Positions 2,424 through 20,483 of a stretch of DNA of 25,076 bases are shown piece after piece. Numbering within the stretch: the stretch's first letter is position 1; each line of letters begins with the position of its first letter. The notes beneath the pieces are model-generated. The model saw only the letters and a list, made by a program, of their open reading frames with translations, did no database searches and was not told the origin of the DNA. This stretch comes from a virus. Both the position numbers and the translations under genes were made by a program. The DNA lies in the IMG/VR virus record IMGVR_UViG_3300021425_000179, positions 1 through 25,076 of that record. One strand, 5' to 3'.

Positions 2424-2601
2424 CACTGAGGCAGTAAAAACTTATCGTCAGCGACAAAAACAAAAAGGCCTGGCTGAGATTCGTGGGCTGTACGTCAAAA
2501 AAGAAGACCACGAACAAATTAAACGACTTGTAAGAAATTTCATTAAGGTGGAAGGGTATGAACAAAATAATAGATTGGCTGGAGTTCATCTGGACGACTG
2601 A
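2404..2601 (+). CDS. Small phage protein, ribbon-helix-helix-like
   Basis: Encodes 65 residues. The pattern AVKTYRQRQKQKGLAEIRG, followed by YVKKEDHEQIKRLVRNF, resembles small phage ribbon-helix-helix proteins (a beta strand followed by two helices). It probably begins with TTG at 2404, preceded by GAGG five bases upstream, inside the end of the NinG-like gene. Its 3' end overlaps the O-like gene by 44 bp. Binding to DNA, or assisting the initiator encoded next to it, is possible but unproven. Confidence 0.6.
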   Translation: MTLKTTSTEAVKTYRQRQKQKGLAEIRGLYVKKEDHEQIKRLVRNFIKVEGYEQNNRLAGVHLDD

Positions 2602-3256
2602 GCTACCAAGCAACTCAAAGTTTGTCGCAGCGTATCTGCGAACATATATGAATGCCAAACGTGACCTTTGCTGGCCCTCTGTGGGCCGTATAGCGAAGGA
2701 AACTGGTCTATCCGAGCAAACAGTAAGGACGCATTTAAAGACGCTGGAGCAGGCGGGGTTTCTCCAAATAGAGAGATCAAATGGTGGCCGCCCATCAGGG
2801 ACGAACAGATATAAAGCCATTTTGCCTAATGATGCAAATGCAGCAATCGAGCAGATTGATGATGCAAATACATCAAAAGCACCCCTGCAACCATTAGACC
2901 CCACCCCTGCAACTGTTGCACCCCTACCCCTGCAACCATTAGACCCGAATATACAAGGGAATAAACAAGGGAATAAACAAATATTAAATAATGATGATTG
3001 CCCTGTTGAATTAGCTGAAAGGGCGATCGACTACTGGATGAAAAAGGGAGCGACCATTGACCTTGATGAACAATGGCAGCTTTTTTGCGCCCATCACCAG
3101 AGTAAGCCCAACGCTAAAATCAAAAACTACGGTGCAGCATGGAGAACCTGGTACGTTAACGCTGTGAAGTTCAACCAGTCCCGTGAGAAGAAAGATCCGG
3201 CAATGACTAGGTTACGGGACACCAGCTGGGCCGACTCAATCATTAACAAAAGTTAA
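2558..3256 (+). CDS. O-like replication initiator with winged helix
   Basis: Encodes 232 residues in two parts. The N-terminal part (about 20-90) holds a winged-helix domain: CWPSVGRIAKETGLSEQTVR (39-58) followed by the wing GGRPSGTNRYKAIL. This is the HTH_36 type common in phage O proteins. The linker (about 91-145) is Pro/Gln-rich and repetitive. The C-terminal part (about 147-215, with NYGAAWRTWYVNAVKF) matches the tail region of O-like initiators that recruits helicase factors. The iteron-like repeats in the linker DNA fit a lambda-type origin inside the initiator gene. No helicase loader follows directly. The ATG at 2558 has GGTGGAAGGG just upstream. Confidence 0.8.
   Translation: MNKIIDWLEFIWTTELPSNSKFVAAYLRTYMNAKRDLCWPSVGRIAKETGLSEQTVRTHLKTLEQAGFLQIERSNGGRPSGTNRYKAILPNDANAAIEQIDDANTSKAPLQPLDPTPATVAPLPLQPLDPNIQGNKQGNKQILNNDDCPVELAERAIDYWMKKGATIDLDEQWQLFCAHHQSKPNAKIKNYGAAWRTWYVNAVKFNQSREKKDPAMTRLRDTSWADSIINKS
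2881..2990 (+). other. Putative replication origin (iterons plus AT-rich tract)
   Basis: Within the linker of the O-like gene, ACCCCTGCAAC recurs at 2881, 2903 and 2926, spaced 22 and 23 bp. The first and third copies extend identically for 21 bp. The middle copy is completed to the palindrome TGCAACTGTTGCA (2908-2920). Immediately downstream, CAAGGGAATAAA is perfectly repeated in tandem (2954-2965, 2966-2977), followed by A+T-only DNA (2978-2991 is almost entirely A/T), which would serve as an unwinding element. Lambda ori has the same order: iterons, then AT-rich DNA, inside gene O. Coding repeats of a Pro/Gln linker are the alternative. Confidence 0.6.
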
Positions 3257-4609: not shown

Positions 4610-5245
4610 ATGAAATCAGATAATTTAAGCGAGCTTGCAGCGGCCTTGTGTAAGGCGCAGGCAGAGATGGGAGGTGCAGTTAAGTCTGCATCAAACCCAT
4701 TTTTTAAATCATCATACGCCGATCTTACATCGGTTATAAAGGCAATCAAAGAGCCTTTTGCAAACAATGGGCTTTCTTACGCGCAGTTTCCGGTCACATC
4801 TGAAGGCGGCAATGGTGTAGGAGTCAAAACGATCCTGATGCATGAAAGTGGCCAGTACCTAGAAAGCGAGTTTTTTCTACCTCTTACGAAAGCTGACCCG
4901 CAGGCAGGTGGTAGTGCGATAACTTACGCCCGTAGATACGCCCTACAGGCTATGGCAGGGCTTCCAACAGCTGATGATGATGCTGAGGCTGCGATGATGC
5001 GGGGAAAGCCAGAACCGACTCATGAGGAGCGCTGCGCCCTTGCAGTGGATCGCAACAAAGACTCTCTTAAGTATATCCGTGACTCTTTAGCGGTTAATAC
5101 ACCAGAGAGCGTTCAGTATGCCATTGAGGCTTGGCGCGAGCTGGATAATGACAGCAAATACGACTTATGGCTTGCCCCAACAAAGGGTGGCTGGTTTACA
5201 ACTCAGGAGCGAAAGCTGTTGAAGGAAGGTTTCAATGGGGCATAA
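4610..5245 (+). CDS. erf: ERF-family single-strand annealing protein
   Basis: Encodes 211 residues. The ERF core covers about residues 5-125: LAAALCKAQAEMGGAVKSAS, then NPFFKSSYADLTSVIKAI, the beta-strand region VKTILMHESGQYLES, and GGSAITYARRYALQAMAGL followed by DDDAE, the family's conserved C-terminal signature. ERF proteins (as in phage P22) anneal complementary single strands for phage recombination and genome circularisation. The C-terminal third (about 140-211) is variable and probably mediates partner contacts. The ribosome site AGGGG precedes the ATG. It acts with the NinG-like and NinB-like proteins of the same operon. No partner exonuclease was recognised. Confidence 0.9.
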   Translation: MKSDNLSELAAALCKAQAEMGGAVKSASNPFFKSSYADLTSVIKAIKEPFANNGLSYAQFPVTSEGGNGVGVKTILMHESGQYLESEFFLPLTKADPQAGGSAITYARRYALQAMAGLPTADDDAEAAMMRGKPEPTHEERCALAVDRNKDSLKYIRDSLAVNTPESVQYAIEAWRELDNDSKYDLWLAPTKGGWFTTQERKLLKEGFNGA

Positions 5246-5796: not shown

Positions 5797-5884
5797 ACTT
5801 TAATTAAAGGATATGAAAATGCAATTCGTAAAAACTTACCTAAACCAAGAACCACCAATCATTAAACCGCTTAGGAGGCGAAAG

Positions 5885-6157
5885 ATGGAACAATATGACA
5901 ACACTAATAAAGGTGTTTTATTTAAAGAGCAGGGCGAAAAAGCCGAAGAATGGCACGATGATTACAAAGGCACAATCGATGTTGAAGGTGTTGAGTATTG
6001 GATTGGCGCTGCTGTTCGCAAGTCTAAAAATGGCATCCCATACATGAAGCTTAATCTTCGTAAAAAAGAAAGTAAGGCTAAAGAAATTGAGCAGGGGTTG
6101 GCGAAGCAAGATCCTCAGCCAGCACATCAGTTTCATGACGATGACATTCCCTTTTAA
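5885..6157 (+). CDS. Putative ssDNA-binding-like protein with SSB tip
   Basis: Encodes 90 residues. The pattern NKGVLFK, DDYKGTIDVEGVEYWIGA and GIPYMKLNLRKKE is a small beta-barrel-like phage family (resembling OB-fold or DUF736-type proteins). A linker and the tip HDDDIPF follow, which is the bacterial SSB C-terminal consensus. It may coat single strands or recruit host SSB partners during phage recombination. The start at 5885 has AGGAGG (5873-5878). An in-frame ATG at 5819 with its own AAAGG would add 22 residues, so two starts may be used. It follows the possible pseudoknot at 5746-5796. Confidence 0.72.
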   Translation: MEQYDNTNKGVLFKEQGEKAEEWHDDYKGTIDVEGVEYWIGAAVRKSKNGIPYMKLNLRKKESKAKEIEQGLAKQDPQPAHQFHDDDIPF

Positions 6158-6444: not shown

Positions 6445-6819
6445 ATGGGATATAGAGTGGGAGTAAGACCAGATTATATGTCAGGTGGAATGAAGTCATA
6501 TCTCGACGCTAGGGGGTTGTCAGGAACACATGACGGTAATTTCAATAAAGACGAAGAACCATGGTTGAGCAGGACAACAGAATTAAGTAGTGATATTGGA
6601 TCTAACTACCAGCTCCATGAAATAAGAGACAACCCAAAAGATTATACCCACCTTGAACCTTTTAGCGTGTTAGCAATGATGGCTATTCGTGATGGGTTTG
6701 ATGAGTTAACGTGGGCGAAGCTTGCCTCTACAAAGAACACTTCATGCCACGACCTGCGTGTCGGCAATAAAACTTACAGGAAGCTAAAAAGCAAAATATA
6801 CGTTAGGAAAAATAAATAA
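6445..6819 (+). CDS. Hypothetical early protein
   Basis: Encodes 124 residues. Nothing was recognised with certainty. The N-terminal half is Gly/Asp-rich and polar; the C-terminal half has a helix (EPFSVLAMMAIRDGFDELTW) and a basic end (RKLKSKIYVRKNK) that could contact nucleic acid. AGGTGTAAAC precedes the ATG at 6445. Its stop overlaps the next gene as TAATG, so the two are coupled. Confidence 0.62.
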   Translation: MGYRVGVRPDYMSGGMKSYLDARGLSGTHDGNFNKDEEPWLSRTTELSSDIGSNYQLHEIRDNPKDYTHLEPFSVLAMMAIRDGFDELTWAKLASTKNTSCHDLRVGNKTYRKLKSKIYVRKNK

Positions 6820-7280
6820 TGGCCTCAGAATATTTGGTAAACCCAGTACATGATGATTGCGCCGAAGATTGCTTGGTAGAGCTTGAAAATAGAATTAGGT
6901 CAGGCAAGCCGTTCAAGGTGATTTATAAAAACGCAACGATGGCCAGCATCGGGCAAAAAGCCCTATTCCACATATGGTGTAGGGAGATGGCATCGCACTT
7001 CATGAATATACCAGCCTCTTCGGTCACTGAGGACGAAGAAGAGTCTGTTAAAGCAAGTCTAAAAAAGGCCGCATACACTCAGAATAGATGGCCGTGGATG
7101 ATCTACACAAAACGAGATGTGTTCACTGGGGAAGAAAAAAAAGATTATAAGAGTATAGGATCTCTTGGGGTTGGGGAAATGTATAACTTAATGGAATTTA
7201 CTCAAATGATAGCCGCTGAACAGGGTTTGATATTGGAGGCGGCTGGCGAATACAAGAGGCTTAAAGATGACTCAGAATGA
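6819..7280 (+). CDS. NinB-like recombination protein
   Basis: Encodes 153 residues. It follows the NinB layout: a strand region ending in a short motif and helix (ASIGQKALFHIWCREMASHF, about 40-59), a central helix with EESVKASLKKAAY, then GSLGVGEMYNLMEFTQMIAA and EQGL near the end, corresponding to the conserved (R/L)xVGExxxLxExxQxxxxxxG segment of NinB. Lambda NinB (Orf) binds single strands and helps load annealing or recombination proteins. Similarity is by pattern only, with low identity. The start is coupled by TAATG. Confidence 0.55.
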   Translation: MASEYLVNPVHDDCAEDCLVELENRIRSGKPFKVIYKNATMASIGQKALFHIWCREMASHFMNIPASSVTEDEEESVKASLKKAAYTQNRWPWMIYTKRDVFTGEEKKDYKSIGSLGVGEMYNLMEFTQMIAAEQGLILEAAGEYKRLKDDSE

Positions 7281-7452: not shown

Positions 7453-7573
7453 AACGATAGCCGAAGAAATTGTATGCTGCGTCTTTGACCTGCTTACCTG
7501 TAGCGATGAAGAGCTGGACTACATGAACTTTGTTAGTGATTTAGAGTTCTGGAGCAGATATGCGTGTGCTTGA
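7424..7573 (+). CDS. Short acidic protein filling a gap
   Basis: Encodes 49 residues from a GTG at 7424 with AAGGA nine bases upstream. It overlaps the previous gene by 29 bp and the methyltransferase by 14 bp, which exactly fills an otherwise empty interval in a packed operon. The chain is acidic with two adjacent cysteines (IVCCVFDLLTCSDEEL) and an aromatic end. It is supported by ribosome site and packing rather than by homology. Confidence 0.52.
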   Translation: MIIGTTIKTETIAEEIVCCVFDLLTCSDEELDYMNFVSDLEFWSRYACA

Positions 7574-8306
7574 TTTATTTAGTGGCATTGGTGGATTTAG
7601 CTTAGGGTTGGAGCGAGCAGGGCTTTCCACAGTGGCATTTTGCGAAATTGAAGAATACCCTCGCCGCGTTCTGGCCCAGCACTGGCCTGACGTACCCATT
7701 TATAATGACGTTACTACACTAACAAAAGAGAGATTAGATAATGATGGAATCTCAGTTGACGTTATTTGCGGCGGATTCCCCTGCCAAGACATCAGCCTTG
7801 CCGGAGAACAACAAGGCATCAGTGAGGACACAAGGTCAGGGTTATGGTCGGAGTGCGCCCGTTTACTTGGGGAGCTTCGACCTAAATACGCCATCTTTGA
7901 GAACGTCACAAACCTGCTTGCTGGAAATGGGGGAGACTGGTTTAAGCGAATACTATGGGACATTTCCAAGGTCGGGTATGATGCGGAGTGGCACTGTATA
8001 CCAGCTTCCCAGCTTGGCGCAAACCACCACAGAGATCGGGTCTGGATTATTGCCTACCCCCAGCGCGAGAGATTACAAGGGAGCGAGAAAGCTGGAAACA
8101 TTGAACCTCAAGGGTCGCGGTTCGACAAACTCTTTACCCGACCATTTTGCAGTTTTAGGCAAGACCATACACATCAGCCCATCATTTCTGGAAAATCACA
8201 TGGGATACCCGACAGGGTGGACAGAGTTAAATCGCTCGGAAACGCCGTAGTGCCGCAAATACCTGAATTAATCGGCAGGGCGCTTATGGCCCTGAAAGCT
8301 GGTTAG
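7560..8306 (+). CDS. dcm: C5 cytosine DNA methyltransferase
   Basis: Encodes 248 residues, short for the family. Visible motifs are I DLFSGIGGF (5-13, SAM binding), IV GGFPCQDIS (71-79, catalytic Cys75), VI ENV (114-116), VIII RDR (158-160) and IX/X VKSLGNAVVPQ (223-233). Enzymes of this family transfer a methyl group from SAM to C5 of cytosine, probably shielding phage DNA from host restriction. The target recognition region between motifs VIII and IX is only about 60 residues. From 7741 the same DNA is open in the +1 frame for 169 codons (separate entry). No partner endonuclease is visible. The gene converges on the lysozyme gene and overlaps it by 23 bp. Confidence 0.92.
   Translation: MRVLDLFSGIGGFSLGLERAGLSTVAFCEIEEYPRRVLAQHWPDVPIYNDVTTLTKERLDNDGISVDVICGGFPCQDISLAGEQQGISEDTRSGLWSECARLLGELRPKYAIFENVTNLLAGNGGDWFKRILWDISKVGYDAEWHCIPASQLGANHHRDRVWIIAYPQRERLQGSEKAGNIEPQGSRFDKLFTRPFCSFRQDHTHQPIISGKSHGIPDRVDRVKSLGNAVVPQIPELIGRALMALKAG
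7741..8250 (+). CDS. Possible overprinted protein within the methyltransferase gene
   Basis: A 169-codon ORF lies wholly inside the methyltransferase gene in the +1 frame. It starts at ATGATG with AAGAGAG about nine bases upstream. The product reads like a phage protein I associate with such methylase loci: LTLFAADSPAKTSALP, then YGTFPRSGMMRSGTVYQLP, GSGLLPTPSARDYKG and HMGYPTGWTEL. SPAKTS is the shifted reading of FPCQDIS, LLPTPS that of WIIAYPQ, and YPTGWTEL that of IPDRVDRV. Conservation in other phages could therefore be a by-product of the methylase frame. A genuine second protein or a conserved shadow are both possible. Confidence 0.42.
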   Translation: MMESQLTLFAADSPAKTSALPENNKASVRTQGQGYGRSAPVYLGSFDLNTPSLRTSQTCLLEMGETGLSEYYGTFPRSGMMRSGTVYQLPSLAQTTTEIGSGLLPTPSARDYKGARKLETLNLKGRGSTNSLPDHFAVLGKTIHISPSFLENHMGYPTGWTELNRSETP

Positions 8307-17222: not shown

Positions 17223-20200
17223 TCAAAGTATCGTGTACGGTTCTTGGCCGCCTGACATTCTAGCCCTAGTAGTAACTCTTACGCTCAAACCGCTACCCGT
17301 TGAACTTTCGCCAGTTAGTATTTCTGTCGCACTATAACCATCGTGGTCATCATCTGCAATATCACCGGATGCAGTGTTAGAGCTAACAGAATCAATGCTG
17401 GTGACTGCACCACTCGACTGAGTATATGTAACCGCTAAATCTCGTGTGCCAGCCGTTGCCCCAGTCTCAGTTTCATCTGGTTTAAACTCTATCGTATCAC
17501 CAGTGCCAAACCCAGTGCCGCCACTTAACAACTCGACCGTGATATGGTTTGCATCAGATATAAATGAATCAGTAGCCCTTACAGCTTTATATGGGTCGTC
17601 CTCTGTGCCGGTGCCACCTGCCGCATCGTTTACCGAGTTAAACCCAGCACTTGTGTTATCTGCTGCATCTTTATCAAACCCGCCGACATCATTTTCAGTA
17701 ACAATCCCGAAGTTTGTAGAGCCAAACCTAAACTGTTTAGCCTTAATCTCGTAGCATTGCTTATTACTATCAAACTTGGTCGATGTGCATTGCATCTGCA
17801 TCAATCGTTCTTGACCTTGATAATTCAAAATATGCTTTGTAAGTAGATAGAAATGCTGCCCTGTTGATAACGAATCTTGCGAGGCATCCATTTTAAATTG
17901 CACTGACTTTGGTGTTTGCTTGAACCGGTTAAGCATTCGTTGGGAGACACTGGTTGCGGTTGATGTATCTTTTACACCCCAGCCGTAAATAGTCTTAATC
18001 GCAGATGAGTTGTATTCATTGACACCTTCGCTATCAACATCAAAATTTAAGTAAAGGTTTTTGTAGTTTCTGGGCTTATCCCTGTCCTCTGTATGGTCGC
18101 GAAGGTTGTAGTAATACTGAACCCTTGAAACACGCTCTTTTTCAGCGTTTATTAATTTAACGCTATCCTCAATAATCTCGTTATCAGTAATCGTAACTAA
18201 TACTGAAGTATCAAGCTCTGGCGTTTCAGCCCTCATAATTATCTGGCTTAGCAGGTCATCATAGAAAAAGTTTACACCTACCATGCTACCCAGTTGCGAT
18301 AACTGCTTATTGACTTCTTTAGGCTCGCTCAGAATAGCGTTTATCTTGAAAGAGGCTAACCACAATGACTTTTCATCTGCCCATGAATACAATTCACCAA
18401 CGGCATTGTTTACTAGGTCAGCGGATATTCCTGCCTGTGTAACCAATAACTCATAAGCGACATCATCAATGGTAACGCCTGAGCCTCCGGTATCGTATGA
18501 GCCAAACACAATACACTTTTGAACGCTATCATCAGCATCATAAGCAACAGTAGCGGCTTCAGAACCCCATTCGCCGCGAGCTTCAAAATCAAGTGCCGCG
18601 TGACTTCCAGATACATCAACCCTATATTCTAATATCTCATCATTAATACGGACAAAACCAGTAGCATTATCCGCACCGAAATAATCAGTCACTTTATCTT
18701 TATCAGCCTGAACACTGCCATCCAAAGCAACATCATCAAACTTCAATTCAATATGGTTATGTGTGCCGCTATTTAAAGCAGCGCCTAAACTGAAACGTGT
18801 AGCAGATGGAACCTTTGCCTTTAGCTCATCTGCCAGTGTCATTGGGTCTTTACACTTTATTGTGCAAACATCGTTATCCAAAAACATTGAGTCAATAATG
18901 TATTCGCGCTTGCCATCATATATTTCAAGGTCGCCTTTGTAGTCAATATAGCCATCATAAACTTCAACAGCCCGACCATAAAAATGCGGATTACGCTCAA
19001 TCAACTTTGTAAAGTAAGTGCCGTTTTCTAATGCAATGATATTGCGAGTAGCAAAGTATGGGTCAACGTCAGCATCATTTGAAATAAAATCGCGCAGCTT
19101 GATAGATACATTGGCCCTAACTGATACGCCTTTTGTTGGCTGAATCTCAACTGGCGCTGTGGATACCGACATCAAAGCCGGATGTGCATCACGCTCTTTA
19201 CCTGTAAGCATATCTCCTTGCTCACTGATAAATGTATAAACACGCTTGCCGCTGTTTGACGTTCGATAATTGGTTAAATCTTGACAGGTTTCTCTTGTGT
19301 TGAAACATTCACTGCCAGCACTCGCACCCGCAGTGCAAGTTGATAGAATAGTGCTGCCACTCTGGCCATAAACATTATCGCAAAAATCAAGGTATAGCTT
19401 GACCACTTGTATCGGCTTTCTTGGCGACAGTTTATGAGCATCATTAAACAATGTATCTAAGGTGGGTACTGTGTTTTTATATTTTGCAAAGTCTTCAAGG
19501 CTTTGTTGCTTATACTTGTATTCTAAGTATCCATGAACTTTGCTTCTTTCTTCACCAGTGAGTTTTCGATTAAAAATTAAAATCTCATATATCGCGCCAT
19601 CTGCACGACCGCTAAAGGCGTCTGTTTTCATTAGCCTCAACGTGTAGTTGCTGTCTGGTAAGTCAGCGCCTACATTATTTTGAAGTGCTGGAACGGTAGT
19701 ACCATCAACGCCAATAAAGTTTACAGATTCATTTGTCGCTAAAGCCTCGTGGATATGTGGCTCTAACTCAGTCAATGTGGCTGTAAAGGATGAGCTTCCG
19801 CCACTTGTGTTGGTGTACTCGATACCGGCTTTATAATCATCAGCATCGGTAGTACTTTCAAAATTAAAAGTAACGTCTTTGCTTCCCACACCATCTTCAA
19901 TTTCAAAGTATGAAACCCCAGTGGTGTCTGACCTGAAATTAGCAAGCATGAAAAAATGCAAATCTTCAAGCGGTACTGATGCTTCAACATTAAAAGAGTC
20001 TGCACCACCCTCAAATAACACGCCGCCAACATCATGTACCTCTGCGACCGTAAGCTCTAAATTACTCCCGCTAAGGCTTGATGGATTTAATGTATCACCT
20101 ACCTGCCAGTCATAAGAGCCGCCAATACTATCAACTGATGTGATAGAACCACCTGATACAGTTATATTAACGAAAACAATATGATTAGCGTCAGCTGTAT

Positions 20201-20483
20201 CTCTCATTGATACATCTGTGATTGTTCCATCAGTGTAGCCTGAACCGGCATTAGTAATCGTAAAAGATACAATTTGCCCCTGCATATATTTAGGGTTTGT
20301 TAAATCAATGCGGCCTTCAGGTGATAGCTTAAAAATAAAGTTGTTGTTACTTTTGTCGCGCCACTCATCAATAATCTGTCCGGCATCAGGTATCCCCTGA
20401 CCATTGTTATTGTTAGGGTCTTGACCATCCAGCCAAACGAATAAATCGCTTTGTAGCTGTTTTGGTGTCCACTCTCTGCTCAC
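17223..20483 (-). CDS. Large tail-tip hub protein with lectin-like N-terminus
   Basis: Encodes 1086 residues, starting with GTG coupled to the upstream stop (GTGA). Residues 1-330 resemble a concanavalin/LamG domain: FVWLDGQDPNNNNGQG and the closing ILIFNRKLTGEERSKVHGYL. Inside it lies an inserted phage repeat domain (NAGSGYTDGTITDVSM; SGGSITSVDSIGG). The middle (about 350-420) has the cysteine cluster of tail hub proteins (KLYLDFCDNVYGQSG; ECFNTRETCQDLTNYRT). The C-terminal 120 residues hold a second GSGYT-like domain. Position between a distal-tail-like protein and the fibre genes, and size, fit a J-like central hub that binds the host and opens the tail. Confidence 0.8.
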   Translation of the reverse strand: MSREWTPKQLQSDLFVWLDGQDPNNNNGQGIPDAGQIIDEWRDKSNNNFIFKLSPEGRIDLTNPKYMQGQIVSFTITNAGSGYTDGTITDVSMRDTADANHIVFVNITVSGGSITSVDSIGGSYDWQVGDTLNPSSLSGSNLELTVAEVHDVGGVLFEGGADSFNVEASVPLEDLHFFMLANFRSDTTGVSYFEIEDGVGSKDVTFNFESTTDADDYKAGIEYTNTSGGSSSFTATLTELEPHIHEALATNESVNFIGVDGTTVPALQNNVGADLPDSNYTLRLMKTDAFSGRADGAIYEILIFNRKLTGEERSKVHGYLEYKYKQQSLEDFAKYKNTVPTLDTLFNDAHKLSPRKPIQVVKLYLDFCDNVYGQSGSTILSTCTAGASAGSECFNTRETCQDLTNYRTSNSGKRVYTFISEQGDMLTGKERDAHPALMSVSTAPVEIQPTKGVSVRANVSIKLRDFISNDADVDPYFATRNIIALENGTYFTKLIERNPHFYGRAVEVYDGYIDYKGDLEIYDGKREYIIDSMFLDNDVCTIKCKDPMTLADELKAKVPSATRFSLGAALNSGTHNHIELKFDDVALDGSVQADKDKVTDYFGADNATGFVRINDEILEYRVDVSGSHAALDFEARGEWGSEAATVAYDADDSVQKCIVFGSYDTGGSGVTIDDVAYELLVTQAGISADLVNNAVGELYSWADEKSLWLASFKINAILSEPKEVNKQLSQLGSMVGVNFFYDDLLSQIIMRAETPELDTSVLVTITDNEIIEDSVKLINAEKERVSRVQYYYNLRDHTEDRDKPRNYKNLYLNFDVDSEGVNEYNSSAIKTIYGWGVKDTSTATSVSQRMLNRFKQTPKSVQFKMDASQDSLSTGQHFYLLTKHILNYQGQERLMQMQCTSTKFDSNKQCYEIKAKQFRFGSTNFGIVTENDVGGFDKDAADNTSAGFNSVNDAAGGTGTEDDPYKAVRATDSFISDANHITVELLSGGTGFGTGDTIEFKPDETETGATAGTRDLAVTYTQSSGAVTSIDSVSSNTASGDIADDDHDGYSATEILTGESSTGSGLSVRVTTRARMSGGQEPYTIL

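Follow-up and report, generated by a model that had tools for sequence, protein, structure and literature searches.

In the two-chain methylase M.EcoHK31I, the gene for the small chain (~176 aa) lies within that for the large chain and is read in a different frame. M.EcoHK31I (YGGCCR), reportedly described by Lee, Kam and Shaw in 1995, is a two-polypeptide C5-methyltransferase whose large chain carries motifs I–VIII and X and whose small chain carries motif IX, and its recognition domain is predicted to lie in the large chain (PMC3404938). M.AquI (CYCGRG) is also composed of two chains, with motif X accompanying motif IX in the second, and its second gene follows the first (PMC3404938).

Here we analyzed a phage contig of 25,076 bases, the whole of which we refer to as the window. 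One stretch of its DNA very probably encodes both chains, alpha and beta, of a heteromeric C5-cytosine methyltransferase of the M.EcoHK31I kind. Compared by description rather than by sequence, the two systems agree in that motifs I–VIII and X are found in the window's alpha and a candidate motif IX in its beta, and in that the small-chain gene lies in another frame within the large-chain gene, the window's beta being fully nested at +1. They differ in the location of the recognition domain, which M.EcoHK31I is predicted to have in its large chain, whereas the putative recognition modules of the window are in beta and alpha has no room for them. In addition, M.EcoHK31I belongs to a restriction-modification system, whereas the window is phage DNA, and no restriction gene was recognized near alpha and beta among the window ORFs tested.

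A second comparison is offered by M.AquI and by the cluster A mycobacteriophage Phontbonne, in which motifs I–VIII are in gp79 and the recognition region, IX and X are in the next gene, gp78, in the +1 frame. Like the window pair, both are split after motif VIII, with recognition and motif IX in the second reading frame. However, motif X accompanies IX in the second chain in these systems, whereas it stays in alpha in the window, and their second gene follows the first, whereas the window's beta sits inside alpha.

A nested reading frame in a phage cytosine methyltransferase gene

Replication and recombination genes surround alpha and beta in the window, and the opposite strand downstream of the pair carries an endolysin, a putative membrane gene, an exonuclease and tail genes. 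The features used below are as follows.

2558–3256: replication initiator-like gene
4610–5245: Erf-like annealing protein
5813–6157: SSB
6819–7280: NinB/Orf-like gene
7560–8306, + strand: alpha, C5-cytosine methyltransferase ORF, 248 aa
7572–7613, + strand: alpha motif I (motif map)
7725–7740, + strand: weak Shine-Dalgarno-like stretch (AGAGAG region) preceding the beta ATG
7741–8250, + strand: beta, nested ORF at +1 offset to alpha, 169 aa, start ATGATG
7770–7796, + strand: alpha motif IV, including the catalytic Cys (PCQ; motif map)
7899–7919, + strand: alpha motif VI (ENV; motif map)
8028–8057, + strand: alpha motif VIII (motif map)
8047–8172, + strand: putative recognition (TRD) module, beta frame, opening LLPTPSARDYKG (beta alignment A1; single-chain relatives)
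8173–8229, + strand: candidate motif IX, beta frame, ISPSFLENHMGYPTGWTEL (beta alignment, profile comparisons, single-chain relatives)
8229–8285, + strand: motif X, alpha frame, KSLGNAVVPQIPELIGRAL (motif map)

On the minus strand, a tail fibre-like ORF (17223–20483, 1086 aa, phrog_11439) adjoins the tail and tape-measure genes.

Alpha matches the Pfam family DNA_methylase over residues 1–173 (E = 7e-47), with further matches to dcm TIGR00675, phrog_363 and phrog_116, and its N-terminal 171 aa align with M.HhaI. Beta matches phrog_1008 (E = 9e-22) and has no model in Pfam. The sequence 5' of the beta start reads AAAAGAGAGATTAGATA-ATGATG. A plausible ribosome site had been noted here in the first-pass annotation, and such a site is present but weak, consisting of a Shine-Dalgarno-like GAGAG ~8 nt before the start; this position is occupied by GAGG in the near relatives L063 and L084. 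Among 148 distinct nested loci, 53% have a core Shine-Dalgarno sequence before the beta start codon, compared with 32% (sd 3%) of synonymous shuffles.

The +1 frame is open and conserved beyond chance

The first-pass annotation had reported a 169-codon +1 ORF at 7741–8250 within the methyltransferase, starting at ATGATG, and had read three of its motifs as shifted versions of methylase segments (SPAKTS for FPCQDIS, GSGLLPTP for RVWIIAYP and YPTGWTEL for IPDRVDRV). The coordinates confirm the ORF, and all three frame correspondences are correct. A chance ORF is ruled out by the +2 control frame and by synonymous-shuffle nulls, in which synonymous codons were permuted while the alpha protein and its codon content were preserved. 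The window's 169-codon stretch was stop-free in only 14 of 20,000 such shuffles. The +1 frame exceeded the null length in all 69 distinct alpha genes (p < 0.05 each), as against 1/69 for the +2 frame.

Conservation of the pair was assessed from both sides. A beta-homologous +1 ORF is present in 80/80 IMG/VR phage loci selected by alpha protein similarity alone. Scans based only on the beta alignment retrieved 80 loci from viruses and 80 from bacteria or archaea, and alpha overlaps beta at offset +1 in all 160, which come from viral contigs, bacterial phyla and one archaeal MAG. A search of 398 genomes, all from a single phylum, with the phrog_1008 profile gave matches in 27 genomes and returned 30 loci, and each of the 28 loci with a confident beta is nested at +1. 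The first-pass annotation had mentioned free-standing annotated phage proteins of this pattern and had proposed looking for phages that keep the ORF without an overlapping methylase. No such phage occurs among the 160 and 28 beta-retrieved loci, and no free-standing beta was found in the 268 loci tested (80 + 160 + 28), which are partly shared between scans and several of which are fragments or MAG contigs; throughout these loci the family is nested with alpha. A plasmid search with beta gave only three matches, all from Bacteroides.

Frequent +1 stops among homologues had been named in advance as evidence against a gene. Across the catalytic overlap, however, the +1 frame is free of stops in 222 of 227 loci. 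Stops are present in all 227 loci both in the +2 frame of the same region and in the +1 frame upstream of beta. One indel moves both frames in some loci, among them several from mycobacteriophages and a few from bacteria (L261, Mycobacterium phage Llama, at ~1815; L397; L245, Paenibacillus macquariensis; and L209), and alpha and beta each run on intact in the next frame. These loci could represent decay or a functioning three-piece form.

Both frames are under selection

Substitutions in the two frames were counted in 39 disjoint locus pairs with a simplified, OLGenie-like, Jukes–Cantor-corrected method. By this count, in which rates saturate at doubly silent sites, the alpha-silent rate per site is 1.08 upstream of beta, 0.27 in the catalytic overlap, 0.14 in the recognition region and 0.21 in the IX/X region, such that alpha-synonymous sites within the beta ORF evolve 4–8 fold more slowly. 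The dN/dS of beta is 0.51 (0.44–0.59) in the catalytic overlap, 0.23 (0.15–0.31) in the recognition region and 0.23 (0.15–0.34) in the IX/X region, whereas the +2 control gives 1.3–2.0. Over the recognition region, the dN/dS of alpha is 0.84, which is near neutral. Since beta is constrained in this region where alpha is not, beta is the master frame there and alpha the passenger.

Fourfold alpha sites, compared in 12-codon bins, differ in 0.44–0.49 of comparisons over alpha codons 1–48 and in 0.01–0.31 over codons 49–228 (mostly 0.01–0.22, with the exception of bin 85–96 at 0.42), and divergence is back to 0.45 from codon 229, directly past the beta stop. The upstream edge of this dip is consistent with the position of the beta start in many relatives, at alpha codon 48. 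Thus, the synonymous depression is confined to the overlap and the second frame is under purifying selection, and the stretch is dual-coding. These measurements of synonymous constraint and dN/dS had been suggested with the original description of the ORF, along with the expectation that a mere shadow would vary neutrally in the +1 frame. Instead, alpha-silent change is depressed and beta is under purifying selection (dN/dS 0.23–0.51), and selection, conservation and homology all support the suggestion that beta is a true overprinted gene partnering a methylase with a short recognition region.

The methyltransferase motifs are divided between the frames

Motifs I, IV, VI, VIII and X are present and in order in alpha, with a gap of ~57 aa between VIII and X that forms a gappy, poorly conserved linker. 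By alignment and motif map, the recognition domain and motif IX are absent from the alpha frame. The N-half of beta, which overlaps the catalytic part of alpha, is conserved (SPAKTS..., PRSGMMRSGTVYQLP), and the C-half consists of one to three modules, each opening with [WL]PTP, followed by the element NPxWVEWLMGFPxGWTDL (alignment A1). The window's beta has one of these putative recognition cassettes, and its relatives have 1–3. The element that follows them looks like motif IX. In the window it ends at 8229, where motif X of alpha starts, so the canonical motif order is kept on the DNA and the frame alone differs.

Modules of the [WL]PTP type are also seen in L062 (2775–3503), L064 (3098–3871) and L357 (Aggie gp53), the last of which has more than three. 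The same cassettes recur across phages in varied combinations, which suggests that they may be exchangeable or may provide multiple specificities.

Database comparisons of beta touch the same element. A beta HMM run against all PDB sequences matched a plant DRM C5-methyltransferase alone, weakly and at motif IX (E = 1.3), and phmmer gave no direct match of beta to the PDB. A profile comparison with single-chain methylases aligned only the motif IX stretch, again weakly (p = 0.095). The AlphaFold model of beta alone has a mean pLDDT of 67 and is confident only at residues ~100–169; Foldseek/VIA found no fold match with this model, a result that is uninformative because the model is weak.

Natural single-chain relatives give the firm link between the C-half and the recognition/IX parts. 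Gordonia phage Sanjuju gp4 and Mycobacterium phage Aggie gp53 have the same catalytic part, recognition modules and motif IX as the window pair, but they carry motifs I–VIII, LLPTP modules, IX and X in one frame, and stops interrupt their +1 frame. Among the IMG/VR loci related to Sanjuju gp4, 11/11 have a recognition/IX region that the beta profile matches in the alpha frame (E = 3e-4 to 2e-8), and in each the +1 frame of the overlap zone contains stops. Because these enzymes hold the matching segment in the alpha frame, the C-half of beta is, by profile similarity, homologous to their recognition/IX part. An AlphaFold model of one single-chain relative (L364; pTM 0.72) is confident in the catalytic and IX–X parts but not in the modules, and it aligns end to end with M.HhaI (Z = 24). 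In the Slopekvirus methylases, used as a negative control, the +1 frame is not open and beta has no match.

Streptococcus-type methylases keep only the N-half of beta

The Streptococcus-type phage methylases (L262 and L264–L343) are single-chain enzymes, complete with a recognition region and motif IX. All 74 distinct members tested nonetheless have a +1 ORF of ~120–190 codons that is homologous to the N-half of beta (p ≤ 0.017 each), and alpha-silent change in these genes is 0.24 in the overlap versus 0.94 before it and 0.80 after it. Judged by their synonymous rates, these genes are strongly dual-coding. The nested ORF, a short one of about 140 aa, matches phrog_16143 (E = 2e-86), as in these two examples.

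1595–2017: short nested ORF, L262, phrog_16143
1150–1575: short nested ORF, Streptococcus phage MM1 ORF14 (L372), phrog_16143

Since this ORF occurs beside a methylase that has its own motif IX, the supply of motif IX does not explain the N-half of beta, which probably plays a further part. Either the N-half serves some purpose by itself, or the Streptococcus-type enzymes are former two-chain enzymes that have retained half of beta. It is conceivable, if somewhat doubtful, that the N-half forms an overprinted module in its own right, with a separate function, and is not merely the carrier of motif IX. If so, it would be a very widespread and unrecognized overprinted companion of phage cytosine methylases, such as a regulator, a chaperone or a counter-defence factor.

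Discussion

Our results favor a model in which alpha and beta are the two halves of one enzyme. We infer that alpha would supply cofactor binding, catalysis (motifs I–VIII) and the closing motif X, while beta, translated from its own ATG inside alpha, would supply the target-recognition module or modules and motif IX through its C-half. The N-half of beta probably packs against alpha. The two chains would assemble into a single enzyme, as in M.EcoHK31I, that may mark phage DNA by methylation at a specific site, presumably allowing escape from host restriction or self-labelling.

Several other readings of the locus were weighed against this model. Beta could be a real gene whose product does something other than target recognition, acting for instance as a regulator, an inhibitor or a counter-defence factor and overlapping a methylase only by coincidence, and the short Streptococcus ORF, which is conserved without recognition/IX parts next to a methylase that has its own, is in keeping with this idea. 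We nevertheless regard it as improbable, given that the C-half is homologous to alpha-frame recognition/IX segments in 11/11 single-chain relatives, that these parts are absent from alpha, and that beta never occurs without alpha in the 160 beta-retrieved and 28 sampled loci.

Programmed frameshifting could in principle produce one chain and no separate beta, with motifs I–VIII followed by a +1 shift into recognition–IX and a shift back for X. The collinearity of I–VIII, recognition, IX and X with canonical enzymes, the junction at which IX ends and X starts, and the existence of natural splits at the same place, as in Phontbonne, would all fit such a mechanism. However, two shifts would be required, both frames are open past any switch point, and the +1 constraint over the whole catalytic half, the conserved ATG and the Shine-Dalgarno enrichment would be left unexplained, making this account very improbable. 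We reject as hardly credible the proposal, raised in the first-pass annotation, that beta is an untranslated shadow kept open and conserved only through constraint on the alpha protein and its codons: the ORF does lie wholly inside a conserved gene, and in the most divergent loci the +1 similarity to the window's beta is weak, little above the null, with the Z of the +2 frame also raised, but alpha-synonymous sites are 4–8 fold slower within the beta ORF and recover past its stop, the +1 frame is stop-free in 222/227 loci versus 0/227 for +2, beta is conserved in a region over which alpha evolves almost neutrally, and neither single-chain relatives nor Slopekvirus methylases are open in +1.

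Several aspects of the layout appear to be new: how widely and how strictly it is kept, the modular make-up of its recognition cassettes, and how rarely it is annotated. If alpha and beta do form a two-chain methyltransferase, an isolated biochemical oddity, one two-chain methylase known from a 1995 paper, would become a general gene arrangement, strictly conserved among very many phages and prophages of numerous phyla. Recognition cassettes would be exchangeable in a region that must stay readable as a linker in the other frame, and the loci together would offer unusually rich material for studying how overlapping genes evolve. Our search of the open-access literature, with most subscription papers and REBASE outside its scope, found M.EcoHK31I mentioned in four papers and none describing phage beta genes of this nested kind.

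The layout has been overlooked because annotation usually retains one of two overlapping frames. In Vibrio phage 1.236.O (MG592600) and Pseudomonas phage phPA-G (PP083311), the beta frame alone is annotated and an intact methylase is found in the overlapping frame. In Paenibacillus phage BN12, both nested genes are annotated as methyltransferase, as are the methylase and the short nested ORF in Streptococcus phages MM1 and P0093. The nested pair is also present, with the alpha frame alone annotated, in Bacteroides phages and on a Bacteroides plasmid (L088, L359 and L354). PHROG 1008 and 16143, both labelled 'DNA methyltransferase', match nested-frame proteins; the label suggests a complete enzyme, whereas the nested products here are without catalytic motifs, which the overlapping frame has, and these labels need correcting. 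Prediction of methylase specificity from the annotated frame alone would likewise miss the recognition domain.

Finally, two Sanjuju-type single-chain methylases (L361 and L362) have an in-frame insertion of ~190 codons at alpha codons ~120–306. By description, it resembles the ShiLan-type insertion, which holds a hidden out-of-frame HNH endonuclease (PMC11855218).
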